Positions 4,505 to 15,625 of a DNA stretch of 64,000 nucleotides are shown one piece after another. Source of the DNA: Caldicellulosiruptor bescii DSM 6725 (GTDB lineage: Bacteria > Bacillota > Thermoanaerobacteria > Caldicellulosiruptorales > Caldicellulosiruptoraceae); assembly GCF_000022325.1 (NCBI RefSeq), contig NC_012034.1, positions 948,501-1,012,500 of the forward strand, read 5' to 3'. Both the position numbers and the translations under genes were made by a program. Below the pieces are notes generated by a model. It had not been told where the DNA came from and did not search any database. It saw only the letters and a list, made by a program, of their open reading frames with translations. Each line of letters opens with the position of its first letter. Position 1 is the first letter of the stretch.

Positions 4505-5596
4505 ATGGGTTTTAAGATGACATTTAGGTGGTTTGGACCAAAGGATGACAATATTCCTCTTGAGTATATACGTCAGATTCCAGGCATATATGGTGTTGTG
4601 ACAGCGCTTTTTGATATTCCAGTTGGAGAGGTATGGCCAGAAGATAGGATTTTTGAGCTAAAAAAAATGGTAGAAGGTGCAGGGCTTAAGTTTGAGGTAA
4701 TAGAAAGCGTAAATGTCCATGAGGACATAAAACTTGGTCTTCCAAGTCGAGATAGGTATATAGAAAACTATAAACAGACCATAAGGAACTTAGCAAAAGC
4801 GGGAGTAAAGGTAATATGCTATAACTTTATGCCTGTATTTGACTGGCTGAGGACAGACCTTGCAAAAAAGCTCCCTGATGGTTCTGAGGTTATGGAATAT
4901 AACCATGAGATACTTAAAAATATGACACCAGATGAACTTGTAAAAAGCATGGAAAGGGGCTCACAAGGATTTTCTCTTCCTGGTTGGGAGAGCTACAGGT
5001 TAAAACAGCTCCAGAGCCTGTTTGAGATGTACAAAGATGTTGATGAGAATAAGCTTTTGCAAAATCTTATCTACTTTTTGGAGAATATAATTCCTGTGTG
5101 TGAGCAGTGCGATGTTAAAATGGCAATACACCCAGATGATCCACCGTGGTCACTTTTTGGTCTTCCAAGGGTTGTAACAAACAAGGAAAATATAGAAAAG
5201 TTTTTAAAAGCGGTTGATAGTCCGTACAATGGGTTGACTTTGTGCACAGGGTCGCTTGGAGCAAACAGGGAAAACAACATTCCGGAGCTTATAAGGTATT
5301 TTGGCAAAATGGGAAGAATACATTTTATGCATGTGAGAAATATAAAATTTACAGGTGAGAGGTCTTTTTACGAAACATCCCACCTGTCGACAGATGGTTC
5401 ATTTGACATGTTTGAGATTATGAAGGCTATATACGACATAGGTTTTGACGGGTATATGCGACCTGACCATGGAAGGATGATTTGGGGCGAAAAAGGGAGA
5501 CCTGGTTATGGACTTTATGATAGAGCACTTGGCATTGCGTATTTGAACGGGCTGTGGGAGGCAATTGACAAGATGTCAAGAAATGAGAAAAAGTAG
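4505..5596 (+). CDS. uxuA: D-mannonate dehydratase
   Basis: A 363-residue UxuA protein that removes water from D-mannonate to give 2-keto-3-deoxygluconate. The N-terminus 'MTFRWFGPKDD' and the metal-site region 'MAIHPDDPPW' (near residue 208), 'CTGSLGA', 'HVRNIK' and 'RPDHGR' are diagnostic of this TIM-barrel, divalent-metal enzyme. An AAAGGGG ribosome site sits 8-14 bp upstream of the ATG. It is the last gene of the hexuronate run before a mobile-element relic interrupts the intergenic region. KDG kinase and aldolase genes are not in the window. Confidence 0.93.
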   Translation: MGFKMTFRWFGPKDDNIPLEYIRQIPGIYGVVTALFDIPVGEVWPEDRIFELKKMVEGAGLKFEVIESVNVHEDIKLGLPSRDRYIENYKQTIRNLAKAGVKVICYNFMPVFDWLRTDLAKKLPDGSEVMEYNHEILKNMTPDELVKSMERGSQGFSLPGWESYRLKQLQSLFEMYKDVDENKLLQNLIYFLENIIPVCEQCDVKMAIHPDDPPWSLFGLPRVVTNKENIEKFLKAVDSPYNGLTLCTGSLGANRENNIPELIRYFGKMGRIHFMHVRNIKFTGERSFYETSHLSTDGSFDMFEIMKAIYDIGFDGYMRPDHGRMIWGEKGRPGYGLYDRALGIAYLNGLWEAIDKMSRNEKK

Positions 5597-5612
5597 TAAG
5601 TAGAAAAGAGAA

Positions 5613-5680
5613 AGGTTTCTCCCCAAAACCGCCTGCTGGGGCTGGGAGACTTTGATGTGGCGGACTATAAATACCCCAGC
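5613..5680 (+). repeat. relic of IS607/TnpB element right end (omega-RNA 3' pseudoknot)
   Basis: This stretch matches the right end of the TnpB element at about 13630-13695. Both carry CCGCC-TG-GCTGGGG, then GGCGGACTA, then AAATACCCCAGCC. CCGCC (5629-5633) can pair with GGCGG (5659-5663) while GCTGGGG (5635-5641) pairs with CCCCAGC (5674-5680); the two helices interleave and form an H-type pseudoknot, and both are kept in both copies although the connecting loop differs. No transposase gene accompanies this copy. It separates uxuA from the GH2 gene. Confidence 0.75.
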
Positions 5681-5718
5681 CATCTTGAGCCGCTGCTTTT
5701 CTGAAGCGGCTCAAGATG
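5681..5718. repeat. 14-bp perfect inverted repeat next to the element relic
   Basis: CATCTTGAGCCGCT (5681-5694) is the exact reverse complement of AGCGGCTCAAGATG (5705-5718), with a 10-base loop. There is no T-run after it, so it is not an ordinary intrinsic terminator. It abuts the conserved element end at 5680, where the targeting guide of a TnpB omega-RNA would lie. The other copy of the element has no equivalent sequence there. Confidence 0.7.
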
Positions 5719-5735
5719 TTCTTGAGTTTCAAAAA

Positions 5736-8168
5736 ATGCAGAAGATAAATTTGGACAGGTCATGGGAATATCTTGAGCTTGGTTTTGCAAATGTATTAAA
5801 CTTAACAAGTTCAGAATATGAGTGGAAAAAGGTGGATCTGCCACATGATGCTGTAATTGAAAAAGAAAGAAGTGAGGCTAATCCCTCAGGTGCCGGTGAA
5901 GGGTATACTGCGGGATGCAGTTTGTATTACAAAAAAGAATTGATTTTAGATGAAGAGTGGCAAGGCAAAAACTTAATACTTGAGTTTGAAGGAATCATGG
6001 GTATAGCTGAGGTTTTTGTAAATGGTAGGTTAGTTGCTAAACACTTCAATGGATACACAAGTTTTCTAATTGATATAACAAAGCATGTCAAGTTTGATGA
6101 TAAGAACATTATTATTGTGCGTGTAGAAAATACTCATAAGCCAAGCTCAAGATGGTACGCAGGTTGTGGCATATACAGACACGTGTGGCTACACATTGGT
6201 GGCAAGGTGTATATAAAACCATGGCATTTGCATGTTCAAACCAGAGCAATTGAAAATGAAACTGCAAAGTTAGAAGTAAGAGCTGTTGTTGTCAACAGTG
6301 TTAATGAAAAAGTTCAAGGAGTAATAAAATTTGATGTATTTTCAAAAGATGAGAAACTAATTCTCAGCAGTGAAGAGAAGTTTTTGATTGGTAAAAATGA
6401 AGAAAAGGTAATTGCCAAAACCTTAGAACTAAAACCATTTAAATATTGGGATATAGAAGACCCATATCTTTATAAAATTCAAGCAACTATTATTTGTGAT
6501 GAGAGTATTGAAGATAGTGCTTCTACATTGTTTGGTATTCGGACAATTTCAGTTGATCCCAAGGAAGGATTTAAATTAAATGGTAAGCCATTAAAATTAA
6601 AAGGTGGCTGTATTCATCATGACAATGGACCACTTGGAAGTGCGAGTTACGATAGGGCAGAAGAGAGAAAAGTAGAACTTTTAAAAGCTTCTGGATTCAA
6701 TGCGGTAAGACTTGCACATAATCCTTTTGCTCCAGCTTTTTTGGATGCATGTGATAGATTAGGGATGCTTGTGATAGAAGAATTTTTTGATGTATGGCAT
6801 GCTGGCAAGGTTAGCTTTGACTACCATCTATTTTTTGACAAGTACTGGGAAGAAGATTTGGAGTCCACCATAATGAGGGACTATAATCATCCTTCGATAA
6901 TAATGTGGTCAATAGGAAACGAGATTACATGGGGAGTTGGAGTTGATGTTGATGACGATAGTAGCTACTCAATATACACCTGGTGTGAACGATTAGCAAA
7001 AAAGGTAAAAAGTTTGGATTCATCAAGGCTAATAACAGCGGCACTGTGCGCAATTCCGGATGATTATAAAAGGCTTTTTGCTATAATTGAAGAAGGTAAC
7101 TATGTAATTAGAATGCTAAAACAAGAAGTAGATGTTATTGAAGATAAATGGGGCGAGTTTTCAGAGAAGTTTTCAAGATTTCTGGATGTAGTTGGTTATA
7201 ACTATAAAGTAGATAGATATGGATTCGATAGGTATAAATATCCTGACCGAGTAATCTGTGGCACAGAAACTTATCCATATACTCTTTTTAAAAACTGGAA
7301 ACAAACAATAGAAAATTCAAATGTTATAGGTGATTTTGTGTGGACGGCTATTGATTATTTGGGCGAAGCAGGTCTTGGTAGGGTAAGTATTGAAGCAGAT
7401 GACCTTAAATCTTTCTGCGGGTCTTATCCATGGTTTTTAGCAAATTGTGGGGATATTGATATTTGTGGGGAAAAACGTCCTCAATCGTATTATAGAGATG
7501 TTGTTTGGGGAAATAGAAAAGACCCTTATATTGTAATACTTCCACCGCAAGTTTATGGCAAAAAACTATATTTTAAACCCTGGGCATGGGAACCGGTCGA
7601 AAGAAACTACACTTTTCCTGGATATGAAGGGATGAAGGTGGCTATACATGTCTATGCAGATGCAGATGAGGTTGAGCTGTTTGTAAATGGCAGAAGTTTG
7701 GGAAGAAAAGAAGTAGGGATTAATACTCAGTTTAAAATGGTTTATGACACAATTTATGAACCAGGAGTGATAGAAGCTGTAGCATACAAAGATGGTAAAG
7801 AGATTGGCAGAGACAAAATAGAAACAACAGGTGAGCCCGTAGCCTTAAAACTGGTGCCTGATAGAGAAGTTATATCCTCTTCTTATGGTGATTTGTGCTA
7901 TATAAAAATAATGGCAGTAGATAGAAAGGGAAGAGAGGTTGTTTTTGCAGATAACAGAATAGTTGTAGAAGTTGAAGGTGTTGGCGAACTTGTTGCTTTA
8001 GGAAGTAGCAATCCTTTGTCAACAGAACCATTTGTTAGCCGAGAGAGAAAGCTCTATAAGGGGCGAGCATTGGCAATAGTAAAGAGCATTGGCAAAAAAG
8101 GAGAATTTAAATTGAAAGCTTGGGCAGAAGGATTGGATGGTGCACAAGTTTTTGTAAAATGCATTTAA
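5736..8168 (+). CDS. glycoside hydrolase family 2 protein (beta-galactosidase-like)
   Basis: About 810 residues from the ATG at 5736; the same frame is open to an ATG at 5652, but that extension is translated mobile-element relic and was rejected. Order: GH2 sugar-binding jelly roll (~1-150), Ig-like domain, TIM barrel with general acid/base E396 in 'WSIGNEI' and nucleophile E511 in 'CGTETYP', then DUF4982-like and Ig-like C-terminal domains. No signal peptide. GH2 includes beta-galactosidases, beta-glucuronidases and others; the cluster suggests trimming of xylan-derived side chains, but the substrate cannot be read from sequence. No good ribosome site precedes either start, possibly because the relic displaced it. 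Confidence 0.8.
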   Translation: MQKINLDRSWEYLELGFANVLNLTSSEYEWKKVDLPHDAVIEKERSEANPSGAGEGYTAGCSLYYKKELILDEEWQGKNLILEFEGIMGIAEVFVNGRLVAKHFNGYTSFLIDITKHVKFDDKNIIIVRVENTHKPSSRWYAGCGIYRHVWLHIGGKVYIKPWHLHVQTRAIENETAKLEVRAVVVNSVNEKVQGVIKFDVFSKDEKLILSSEEKFLIGKNEEKVIAKTLELKPFKYWDIEDPYLYKIQATIICDESIEDSASTLFGIRTISVDPKEGFKLNGKPLKLKGGCIHHDNGPLGSASYDRAEERKVELLKASGFNAVRLAHNPFAPAFLDACDRLGMLVIEEFFDVWHAGKVSFDYHLFFDKYWEEDLESTIMRDYNHPSIIMWSIGNEITWGVGVDVDDDSSYSIYTWCERLAKKVKSLDSSRLITAALCAIPDDYKRLFAIIEEGNYVIRMLKQEVDVIEDKWGEFSEKFSRFLDVVGYNYKVDRYGFDRYKYPDRVICGTETYPYTLFKNWKQTIENSNVIGDFVWTAIDYLGEAGLGRVSIEADDLKSFCGSYPWFLANCGDIDICGEKRPQSYYRDVVWGNRKDPYIVILPPQVYGKKLYFKPWAWEPVERNYTFPGYEGMKVAIHVYADADEVELFVNGRSLGRKEVGINTQFKMVYDTIYEPGVIEAVAYKDGKEIGRDKIETTGEPVALKLVPDREVISSSYGDLCYIKIMAVDRKGREVVFADNRIVVEVEGVGELVALGSSNPLSTEPFVSRERKLYKGRALAIVKSIGKKGEFKLKAWAEGLDGAQVFVKCI

Positions 8169-11395: not shown

Positions 11396-12166
11396 TTGGC
11401 TGGTGACAAAATAACCTTAAGACAGCTTGAAACCCATCTTTTCAAGGCAGCTGATATACTCAGAGGTAAGATGGATGCCTCTGAGTATAAAGAATATATT
11501 TTTGGTATGCTTTTTCTAAAATATACTTCGGATGTTTTTGAAGAAAAAAGACAGGAGTTAAAAGATAGATTTAAAGCTATGGGATTTTCTGAAAAACAAA
11601 TACATGAACTATTAGAAGATCCAAGCTCTTATGGTGATGCCTTTTTTGTCCCTGAAAAGGCAAGATGGGAAAATATTTTAAAGTTAAAAGAAGATGTTGG
11701 AAATCAGCTAAATAAAGCTCTGAGCGCTTTAGAGGAAGCAAATCCAGAGCTTGATGGAGTTTTGAAACACATAGATTTTAACGCAGTAAAGGGAAAAACC
11801 CGACTCAAAGATCAGCAACTTATTGACCTTATTAACCATTTCAACAAGTATAAACTAACACCTTCAAACTTTGAATTTCCTGATCTGCTTGGTGCTGCTT
11901 ATGAGTATTTGCTAAAGGAATTTGCCGATTCAGCTGGTAAAAAAGGAGACAGACTTGCAAGGTTTGGATTTAAATATCTTAAGTTTTTCATGGAGAGCTT
12001 TGGGGTAGAACTGGTAGTGTTAAATGGCAGAGAAAATGAAGAAGATATAAACAGAGAACTGGCAGAGGACTTAATAGCGATAGTAACATCTTTTGCAGCG
12101 AGGATTTATGGACAAAGAGGTGCTAAAAGACATGGTAACAGTTCAGGCGAAGTTAGTGTTCGATAG
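11396..12166 (+). pseudogene. HsdM N-terminus fused in frame to the C-terminus of an IS607 serine recombinase
   Basis: A TTG start follows GGAGGGG. Residues 1-184 are the N-terminal helical domain of a type I DNA methyltransferase (HsdM_N), up to '[10 protein letters not shown]', which should lead into 'GEFYTP' and the SAM-binding domain. Instead residue 185 onward ('[11 protein letters not shown]', '[21 protein letters not shown]') is the C-terminus of an IS607-type TnpA. The TnpA catalytic serine and DNA-binding N-terminus are absent. The missing HsdM part resumes at 13733 as 'GEFYTPSHVKKL'; removing the intervening DNA at the shared GGAG restores the frame exactly. The chimera is an accident of insertion and should have neither activity. 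Confidence 0.82.
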
Positions 12167-13670
12167 AGAGGAAGACAAAAAGGCAGTATTAGATCTTATG
12201 AGAAGATGGTCCTCTTGTATGAGGTATGCATACAAGAGGTTACTGGAAGGGCATAAAAGGAATGAACTCAAAAGAGAACTGCAAGGAATTTTTAATCTTA
12301 ATTCCCGATACGTTGATGATGCAATAATGAAAGCAAACAGTGTTTTAAACTCATGCAAAGAAAGAGGAGAAAATCCTGAAAAGGTCATTTTTGGTGGCAG
12401 GCAACTTTTTGAAAAACTAAAGAGGCGGCACATAAACGGCAAGGTATATAGGAAACTTCAACGAGAGTGGCAGGAGAAAAGGAAGGGGAATCTGTACTCA
12501 AGAGGAGACAGGAGCAAAAAGGGGAATCTCAATACAAGGATTGAGATAGACGGGAACTTCACAAAACTCAGGATTAACGTAGGAAAAAGAGAGTACGTAT
12601 ATGCGACGATACAAGCTGGATGGAAGATGAAAGGTAAGACATACATGGATAGGAACCTACTGCTACAAGCAATAAGCAGCTTTAGTGGACCTTATTCTGT
12701 AGAACTGAAACTCAAAAACGGTGTAGTATATGCCTACTTCACCGTTGAAGAAGTTTTCCCCAAGCCTGCGATAACGAGAGCAAATGGAGTTATAGGGATA
12801 GACACTAACGCATATCCAAAGAATGTTGCATGGGCAGAAACAGATGAGTACGGACAGTTTCTGGGATATGGCAGAATACCACTTGAGAAGCTTGAGAGTG
12901 GAAGCTCAAGCAAGAGAGAGTATTACAGGTGGCAGTATGCACACATGATAGTACAAATGGCGAAAGAGAAGCAAAAAGCCATAGTGATTGAGAACCTTAG
13001 CATACAGGACAGGGGCAGAAGAGGCGACTTTTCAGGTAGAAAATCAAGACGGATAAGGCACTATTTTGGAAGCAGATTACTTTTGGAGAAGGTAAAACTT
13101 CTGGCAAAACGGGAAGGAGTAGAGGTTATAGAAGTAGACCCGGCGTATACTTCTGTGATAGGGATGTTGAAGTATGCACCGCAGTATATGGTGAGCAAGG
13201 ATATTGCGGCAGCGTATGTAATAGCGCGAAGAGGACTTGGTTTGAGAGAAAGGATACCGCACAATTATATGCTGCTTCTTAGTAGGCTTGATGTAAACAA
13301 CCTGGAAGAGCTAAAAGAGTATGTAAGGAAGGTAGTCAAGAACAAACATCTGAGGAAAAAACAACTCAAAGCGATAGATAGAGCGATAAAGTTTTTACAA
13401 AGCTCTGGGAGTGAGCCAGGGAGGCTATCCGTGCCTCTGGATGGAACAAGCGCGGGTAGTCGTGGCAAAAAACACAATCCCTGGCAAGTTCTTAGGGTAG
13501 CGGTGGTAACGCCACTCTCCCCTGACAGAGTCCTGCGTGATATGTCTGTCTTGAAATCGCTTTTGATTTCAGGGCAAGTGGGGAAGACCTGTAAGGGCGT
13601 AAGTTCCTGCTTCTTGGGGCAGGGGCTATGGCTTTCCCAAATACCGCCTGCTGGGGCTGGGAAAGCCTGA
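12108..13670 (+). CDS. tnpB: TnpB RNA-guided nuclease, IS607-associated, without zinc-ribbon cysteines
   Basis: The ATG at 12108 has GAGG just upstream and overlaps the tnpA fragment, as usual in IS607 elements; an in-frame start at 12093 is also open. The RuvC-like active site is complete: D232 in '[10 protein letters not shown]', E295 in 'IVIENLSI' and D365 in 'SKDIAAAYV'. Where most TnpBs have CxxC pairs between the last two motifs, this one has '[14 protein letters not shown]' and no cysteines. The final ~90 residues are low-complexity translation of the structured RNA-encoding DNA and may be untranslated or dispensable. Known TnpBs cut DNA using an omega-RNA from the element 3' end. Confidence 0.85.
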
Positions 13671-13695
13671 AAGGCGGACTACAAATACCCCAGCC
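13410..13695 (+). ncRNA. probable omega-RNA (HEARO-like) overlapping the tnpB 3' end
   Basis: This GC-rich stretch differs sharply from its surroundings and holds several strong helices: TGAAATC/GATTTCA (13552-13558/13565-13571), CCTGC/GCAGG near 13605-13623, and a pseudoknot in which CCGCC (13644-13648) pairs with GGCGG (13673-13677) while GCTGGGG (13650-13656) pairs with CCCCAGC (13688-13694). TnpB elements are known to encode their guide RNA here, ending at the element boundary. The 5' limit is my estimate. The pseudoknot recurs at 5613-5680. Confidence 0.65.
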
Positions 13696-13732
13696 GCCAA
13701 TACTGTGCAATTTTACACAGTTTGGTTGACCA

Positions 13733-15625
13733 GGAGAATTTTACACACCATCACATGTTAAAAAATTGATGGTAAGGTTAGTTAAGCCCTGTGAGGGCAT
13801 GTCAATTTACGACCCAACTGTGGGCTCTGGTGGTTTCTTGATTGAAGCGTTCCACTATGTTGAGGAACAAGGGCAAAACCCAAGAAATTTAGCACTATAT
13901 GGGCAAGAGCTTAATGGATTGACATGGTCTATATGCAAAATGAATATGATTTTGCACGGCATTAATGACGCGCACATAGAAAATGAAGATGTGTTGACAA
14001 CCCCTATGTTTTTGGAAAATGGATACATAAAAAGGTTTGACAGAATATTGGCCAATCCACCTTTTTCAGAAAACTATACCCGCGCAAATATGCAGTTTGA
14101 AGAAAGATTTAAATATGACTTTACTCCTGAGAATGGAAAAAAGGCAGACCTTATGTTTTTGCAGCACATGATTGCAAGCCTGAAAGATGACGGAGTAATG
14201 GCAACAGTTATGCCCCATGGAGTTTTGTTCAGAGGTGGGCAAGAAAAGGTTATAAGGGAAGGAATTGTAAGAGATGATCTAATTGAGGCAATAATAGGAC
14301 TGCCGCCTAAGCTTTTCTACAACACTGGAATACCAGCTTGTATTATTGTGATTAATAAAAACAAGCCAGAACATTTAAAAAATAAGATCTTGTTTATCAA
14401 CGCTGATAGAGAGTATGGAGAAGGTAGAAATCAGAATTTCTTGAGACCAGAGGACATAGAAAAAATAGTTACAGTGTTCGATGAAAAGAAAGAGATACCT
14501 AAATACTCCAGGTTGGTTGATATAAAGGAGATAGAAGAAAACGATTTTAATCTGAATATTAGGCGTTATGTGGACAATTCTCCAGATCCTGAAATCGAAG
14601 ATGTTCGTGCACAGCTTTTTGGTGGTGTACCGAAGAAAGAAGTATTGCTGTATGAAAAACAGTTGAGGAAATTTAACTTGAGCTATGATATTTTGCTGGC
14701 AGAGAAGAGCGAAAATTATTTGGAGTTTAAAAAGGACATTACTGACAGAAATCAAATTAGGGAACTGATTGATAATTGCACTGAAGTGAAAGTTACAATA
14801 GAAAAACACAAAGAAAAACTTTTGGATTGGTGGCAGCTTGTAAGGACTGAAATTGAACAGTTTTTTGGCAGAAATAATCTTTGGAAGTTTAGAAATGAAG
14901 CTTTGAAAAAGTTGAAAGAAAGTCTGCTGCCAATTGGAACATTTGACGAATTTAAAGTTGCGGGCATATTTGCAAATTGGTGGGAAGAGCTTGTTTATGA
15001 TTTCAAAAGTATAGTTTCTGCTGGTTGGAATAGGAATTTGGTTGAAAGAGAAAGGATTAAGGAAAAGTATTTTAAAGAAGATGTAGAAGAAATGGAAGAA
15101 CTTGAAAGCAGGCTTGCCGAAATTGAAGCAGATTTAAGTGAGCTTTTAGAAGAAGTTGAAGATTGGGATGAAGAACAGCAGGGAGATAAAACTGCAAGCA
15201 AGGTCAAAGAGTTTTTGAAGGACTTGGTTAAAGATTTAAGATCAAAAGACAGCGAGGCTTCAAGAAGAGAAGCAAAAAAATGGGAAGATTTGTTAGAAAA
15301 TATTGCTCAAAAAGAAAAGGAAATTAAAAAGGTGAGAAGTGAGATAAGCAGAAAGCAAAAGGAAATTGAAAATAAGATAGATGAAAAGATTGAATCTATT
15401 ACTGAAGAAGAAGCAAAAGAGCTATTGCTCGTAAAGTTCTTTGAATTAATTAGCAATCAACTTGAAAAGTACTTAAATGCAGAAAAGAAAGAACTGATAA
15501 AGATTTTTGAAAAGCTTTGGGATAAATATCATGTGTCTCTTGAACATCTTTTAAAGGAACGAGAGCAGGAGGTCAGTAGGTTAAATAAATTTTTGGAGGA
15601 ACTTGGATACTATGAGAGAGTCTAA
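13733..15625 (+). pseudogene. hsdM: HsdM, catalytic part (3' portion of the split gene)
   Basis: The frame resumes at 'GEFYTPSHVKKLMV' and continues to a normal stop. Counting from an internal TTG at 13766, the SAM-binding motif is 'YDPTVGSGG' (residues 15-23) and the catalytic motif 'ILANPPF' (residues 94-100), as in N6-adenine methyltransferases of type I systems. The C-terminal half is long and strongly coiled-coil (Glu/Lys-rich). With its N-terminal domain detached by the IS607 insertion, a functional HsdM would need reassembly of two polypeptides, and no clear ribosome site is seen for this half. Confidence 0.85.

Follow-up and report, generated by a model that had tools for sequence, protein, structure and literature searches.

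Structured 5′ leaders of bacterial genes include riboswitches, attenuators, and ribosomal-protein leaders. To our knowledge, the exaptations of TnpB systems known so far keep the protein. TldR is described in the available part of its source as an exapted, nuclease-dead TnpB with a guide RNA (PMC13418256). According to the accessible portion of another report, IS607 TnpB with a RAGATH-18-derived reRNA comprises the IS607 tnpA, tnpB, and a pseudoknotted RNA at the right end (PMC11061315). In this work, we analyzed a window of 64,000 nucleotides (the whole stretch of DNA studied) from Caldicellulosiruptor bescii DSM 6725 and found a related RNA end in front of a GH2 glycoside hydrolase gene. As in the IS607 TnpB/RAGATH-18 reRNA system, so far as the accessible portion describes it, tnpA, tnpB, and right-end pseudoknots occur here, and the Shine-Dalgarno-like insertion sites of our elements resemble the TAM given there (AGGAG or GAGGG); unlike that system, the focal copy lacks tnpB, the terminal CCAGG, the upstream half, and any match to RAGATH-18 in Rfam. 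The likeness to TldR, on the available description, is that a TnpB system is in host use. However, TldR keeps both protein and guide RNA, whereas the RNA end alone is apparently retained at GH2, as an apparent cis leader, with a natural experiment over 11 genomes. Like other structured leaders, it is a conserved folded RNA located right before a start codon; unlike them, it derives from a mobile element and has no known terminator, ligand, or partner. Searches of the open-licence literature listed no report of a conserved guide-RNA end that lacks TnpB, nor of these elements inserting at Shine-Dalgarno sequences, which is no proof of absence.

The RNA-like block lies on the + strand between the stop of uxuA (5596) and the start of GH2 (5736). 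The upstream gene encodes mannonate dehydratase (4505–5596, + strand; PF03786, E 5e-169), and the downstream gene (5736–8168, + strand) has matches to PF02836, PF00703, PF02837, PF16355, and PF18565. The fold of the block (5618–5718, + strand) consists of hairpin A with the pairings B and C, followed by hairpin P4. In helix A, 5618–5623 pairs with 5644–5649, and its loop bears the 5′ strands of the two pseudoknot helices, namely, B (CCGCC at 5629–5633 with GGCGG at 5659–5663) and C (GCTGGGG at 5635–5641 with CCCCAGC at 5674–5680). The three helices are mutually crossing, and the loop of A thus pairs twice with downstream sequence. P4 (5681–5718) adjoins helix C with no gap in between, and its 14-bp arms (5681–5694 and 5705–5718) form a perfect inverted repeat with a z of −6.3 against shuffles. 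A spacer of 17 nt without a strong Shine-Dalgarno sequence (5719–5735, + strand) separates P4 from the GH2 ATG. The original prediction had described helices B and C, in this copy and in a TnpB element, exactly as we find them and had recognized the perfect repeat; helix A was overlooked. Minimum-free-energy folds show no joint A, B, and C, pseudoknots being outside that folding model, and in G001 the fold of the hairpin region favors a different pairing. The Rfam search of the window returned one tRNA only, with nothing relevant for the block at E up to 10; for RAGATH-18 and the other Rfam families, the block is below the gathering score. Neither a + strand terminator-like site nor a promoter-like site was found in 5300–5900. 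An internal promoter was rejected for this reason, as was an intrinsic terminator or attenuator, and TTTTT follows P4 in G007 alone.

The block matches the right end of an IS607-type TnpB element in the same window. The match is real, although it extends over about 62 bp (13635–13695, 84% identical over query positions 16–77) and not the 68 bp originally given. This element (11947–13734, + strand) splits the hsdM gene of a type I restriction-modification locus (11396–15625), with HsdM_N and N6_Mtase on either side. The junctions are at 11945–11946 and 13733–13734, the deduced empty site is GCTGGTAAAAAAGG|AGAATTTTACACACC, and the joined flanks read AGKKGEFYTPSHV. The element includes a 3′ fragment of tnpA, a serine recombinase gene (11945–12163, + strand; NF033518 IS607 transposase, E 1.2e-20, profile positions 128–186 of 187), and tnpB (12132–13670, + strand; TIGR01765, 9.8e-24; TIGR01766, 7.3e-15), which reads into the pseudoknot. 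The TnpB protein has no Pfam family at 0.001 and a weak TNB-domain match only at E up to 10. An IS605 origin was rejected because the sequence before tnpB is the IS607 tnpA fragment. The right end (13630–13734, + strand) has the same order as the focal block: A (13630–13667; GGCTTTCCC/GGGAAAGCC), B (13644–13677), C (13650–13694), and P4 (13695–13728), followed by ACCAGG (13729–13734). The element therefore does not end at CCCCAGC, as had been assumed, since full elements run on with their own hairpin of about 30 nt and ACCAGG. For the same reason, a guide does not sit at the inverted repeat; the repeat is P4, which the elements also have at this position, and its reading as a guide was rejected. 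The window element thus has the tnpA and tnpB of the IS607 class, whereas the focal copy has neither gene of its own and no terminal CCAGG. A tnpB gene is absent near all 11 GH2 leaders described below and also in L001, L061, and L067. Compared with a TnpB guide RNA that has its scaffold beside tnpB, the focal copy shares the pseudoknot part and lacks the upstream stem and the adjacent tnpB. Homology to the right ends of IS607-type TnpB elements supports the predicted origin as a solo right end.

We searched 41 genomes, which include 12 of the genus of the window (g1, with G000 as the genome of the window) and 29 others. In G000, a BLAST search with 5605–5690 gave nine strong copies (E 2.8e-39 to 2.3e-10) among the 12 matches listed, and BLAST found the pseudoknot core in 22 of the 41 genomes. 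The further copies that had been suggested as a check do exist; a covariance model built with A and P4 identified 114 copies in the 41 genomes at a cut-off of 40 bits. For 90 of these, a tnpB match in the same orientation lies no more than 600 bases upstream. Five more abut contig edges; the remaining 19 are solo, of which 11 precede GH2 and eight occupy other places. Among the solo copies not located before GH2, L134 is truncated, and L138 has lost six of the 20 pairs of A, B, and C. A second solo pseudoknot with P4 (L133:2613–2732) was observed in G010, after an ABC permease gene and 15 nt before a lipase-like gene for which none of the 11 other genomes of the genus has a relative. The anti-Shine-Dalgarno duplex of this gene, behind the solo block, is −2.9 kcal/mol. 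Furthermore, two copies of tnpB (L132, G002:C1:40733–42229; L139, G011), of which one has an open frame, have right ends that lack the pseudoknot. In these ends, a P4-like hairpin directly follows the upstream stem and is followed by AACCAGG, so the pseudoknot is a separable module.

A search at 1e-100 recovered the GH2 gene from 11 of the 12 genomes of the genus, and the 29 other genomes searched gave no match. In all 11 GH2-bearing genomes, the RNA block lies after the uxuA stop codon and ahead of the GH2 start codon, in each case without tnpB. The genome without GH2 (G011) is also missing uxuA; in the neighboring genus (G012), uxuA is present with ordinary sequence downstream. Within the genus, eight genomes make up a close clade, and G005, G007, and G008 carry GH2 at 76–77% identity. 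Between G000 and G005, the pseudoknot core (three segments of 40 nt in total, picked with the alignment already in view) is identical at 40 of 40 positions, compared with 99 of 216 fourfold sites in GH2 (46%). Between G000 and G007, the corresponding values are 38 of 40 and 95 of 219, and the two core differences belong to a single compensated pair in helix C. Among the leaders, the spacer sequences that flank and separate the helices have diverged, and G003 has a helix A of seemingly intermediate form, with the element-like type of G005 on one side and the G000 type on the other. The terminal CCAGG is gone from all 11 leaders, which also lack the conserved stem found upstream of the pseudoknot in the elements. 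Cognate tnpB matches are still present in 10 of the 11 leader-bearing genomes; G009 has none at 1e-10 and keeps the leader. With its constant position before orthologous genes and its compensatory changes, the block has the properties of a conserved structured cis leader. The same place in all GH2-bearing genomes and the decay of L134 and L138 also argue against the idea that it is a stranded relic. Relatives do carry it as the spacer between uxuA and GH2, yet this spacer is conserved and structured, not ordinary.

Covariation, the other check that had been suggested, was detected as well. Among the 11 leaders, 98.0% of the 198 cells in A, B, and C are paired, and three pairs have changed on both sides (two in A and one in C, the latter from UA to CG in G007). 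The covariation score is 0.137 compared with 0.079 in shuffles, and none of 500 shuffles, which ignore kinship, reached it; with the partners slid, the score is at most 0.059. The count of pairs changed on both sides was reached by 33 of 500 shuffles, and further pair types, one of five measures, were not above shuffles (495 of 500 reached the value). For helix A, 93.9% of cells are paired in the leaders, and the helix is partly broken in the close clade, with one mismatch each in G009 and G010 and two in G004. A wider set of 34 sequences comprised eight leaders and 26 other ends, picked for diversity from 63 distinct ones. In this set, 94.3% of 1004 cells are paired, 17 of 31 pairs have changed on both sides (including six of eight in A and two in C), and none of the five covariation measures was reached by any of 500 shuffles, again ignoring kinship. 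Helix B is invariant in both sets and provides covariation evidence neither way. When aligned from its base, P4 retains at least 11 of its 12 pairs in each of the 11 leaders, even though the sequence is largely replaced between clades. The excess of G-U over A-C cells (14 versus two, of 330) indicates that the folded strand is the + strand RNA, which is that of uxuA and GH2.

The elements target Shine-Dalgarno sequences. The empty site at gyrA (...AAAGGGAGG|AAAAATTAAAGCATGG) occurs in five genomes, an element is located in the Shine-Dalgarno sequence in G006 (L069), and only the right end, a deletion derivative of the element, is present in G000 (L042). The gyrA gene of G000 therefore stands behind ACCAGG. 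For gyrA, the duplex energy is −11.2 at the empty site and falls to −4.3 behind the element or its end. The site at a DUF1646 gene is empty in six close copies (AGGAGG|TATA), whereas two genomes (G034 and G019) have an element end there (CCAGG|TATA). A second conserved solo end at this gene was considered and rejected; the ends in G034 and G019 are element-like with CCAGG, and the six other close copies examined are empty. The filled and empty sites at gyrA and the DUF1646 gene, together with the hsdM site deduced from its own flanks, indicate insertion at GG without target duplication. For 54 of 66 element ends, the start codon of an ORF of at least 60 aa lies at +3 to +22; with any AGG of the window as the control, the figure is 296 of 1568. 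This control is rough, and the 66 ends include some that represent the same locus in two species. These findings agree with the preference of IS607 for GG stated in the available parts of two sources (PMC6188088, PMC10711439) and with the TAMs AGGAG or GAGGG reported for IS607 TnpB in the accessible portion of a third (PMC11061315). Such targeting accounts for the occurrence of elements immediately ahead of start codons, including those of gyrA and of dnaN in G003, and prompts one to ask how expression of the host gene is maintained. Because gyrA is essential and its duplex is weakened to −4.3, element ends of this kind must permit expression. The gyrB-gyrA spacers (L069:640–1220; L095–L106) contain small ORFs in several genomes, which resemble a toxin-antitoxin pair with a Fic/Doc-like frame.

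In all 11 leaders, the end of P4 is 15–17 nt from the GH2 ATG, and the anti-Shine-Dalgarno duplex of GH2 is +0.3 to −2.8 kcal/mol, such that none has a strong Shine-Dalgarno sequence. For comparison, the median at the first ATG of 33 window ORFs of at least 200 aa is −6.5, with some as weak as the leaders, and the neighboring genes have −5.4 (GH67), −6.7 (uxuB-like), and −7.3 (uxuA). Alternatively, GH2 may just be a poorly translated gene. On balance, the sequence patterns lean toward an exaptation, in which the right end of a TnpB element serves as a cis-acting leader of GH2 and probably aids the start of translation. Given the insertion of elements into Shine-Dalgarno sequences, the leader would most simply derive from such an event at GH2, for which no empty site is known as proof. 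An IS607-type TnpB element may have inserted into the GH2 Shine-Dalgarno sequence, downstream of uxuA, before the genus diversified. The element body would then have been lost, while the 3′ part of the guide-RNA region (hairpin A with both pseudoknot helices, followed by P4) remained and presumably took on, by exaptation, the role of a cis-acting leader within the uxuA-GH2 message. The folded block, 15–17 nt before the ATG, could present an unpaired start region and replace the missing ribosome-binding site. An action at translation start is suggested because the block stands at the ribosome landing site and the usual signal is missing. The exaptation as such is favored by the presence in 11 of 11 genomes, the conservation of the core far beyond fourfold sites, the compensatory changes, the leader kept in G009 without a cognate tnpB, and the decay of other solo copies.

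The nearest rival to a role in translation, which we consider possible at a clearly lower probability, is a role in RNA decay that is also cis-acting. The block may stop a 5′-3′ exonuclease of the RNase J type or mark a cleavage point between uxuA and GH2, thereby stabilizing the GH2 mRNA. The same conservation data fit, a hairpin with its loop tied twice downstream is compact, and the 5300–5900 region has no + strand terminator and no promoter-like site; however, stabilization does not require the fixed 15–17 nt to the ATG or the missing Shine-Dalgarno sequence.

An action in trans appears somewhat less probable still. TnpB from other copies may bind the leader, either as a riboregulator or as a guide RNA with the GH2 start as the guide, and the latter would cut insertion-free alleles that have the Shine-Dalgarno sequence as TAM. 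Leaders and elements conserve the same nucleotides, tnpB matches occur in 10 of the 11 leader-bearing genomes, and AGGAG or GAGGG is a TAM in the accessible portion of the IS607 TnpB report (PMC11061315). In contrast, G009 retains the leader with no tnpB match at 1e-10, all 11 leaders have lost the terminal ACCAGG beside the guide and the conserved upstream stem of the elements, and one open-frame tnpB, in G002, is associated with a right end that lacks the pseudoknot.

It is very improbable that a functionless solo end has persisted by chance, since the core is identical at 40 of 40 positions compared with 46% of fourfold sites, compensatory changes accompany its presence in 11 of 11 genomes, and loss of parts or pairs is seen in L134 and L138. 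Solo ends can nevertheless form, as in 19 of the 114 copies, including the gyrA deletion derivative in G000. A cellular leader later captured by elements is equally improbable; the open-frame tnpB element lacking the pseudoknot, which is thus a separable module, and the second solo leader in G010 would fit, but the RNA occurs with tnpB in two genera (g1 and g5) and the GH2 leader in g1 only, and the intermediate helix A of G003 is expected of one old drifting insertion.

A doubtful extension of the exaptation reading is that the pseudoknot and P4 may be a portable device, carried by IS607-type TnpB elements, that keeps genes with an element-split Shine-Dalgarno sequence expressed. This could operate through a Shine-Dalgarno-poor translation start or a block to 5′-3′ decay, and GH2 and the G010 lipase-like gene would have kept the device after element loss.

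Beyond the genus, pseudoknot matches were observed in contigs titled Caldisericum exile (L116), bacterium 42_11 (L123), Bathyarchaeota archaeon (L128), and an unnamed bacterium (L129), which reflect either a wider spread or misbinned contigs. Finally, G000 (L141) and G006 (L142) share, at the same place, a short element in which tnpB is reduced to its terminal portion, upstream of a small ORF that looks like one for a histone-like DNA-binding protein.
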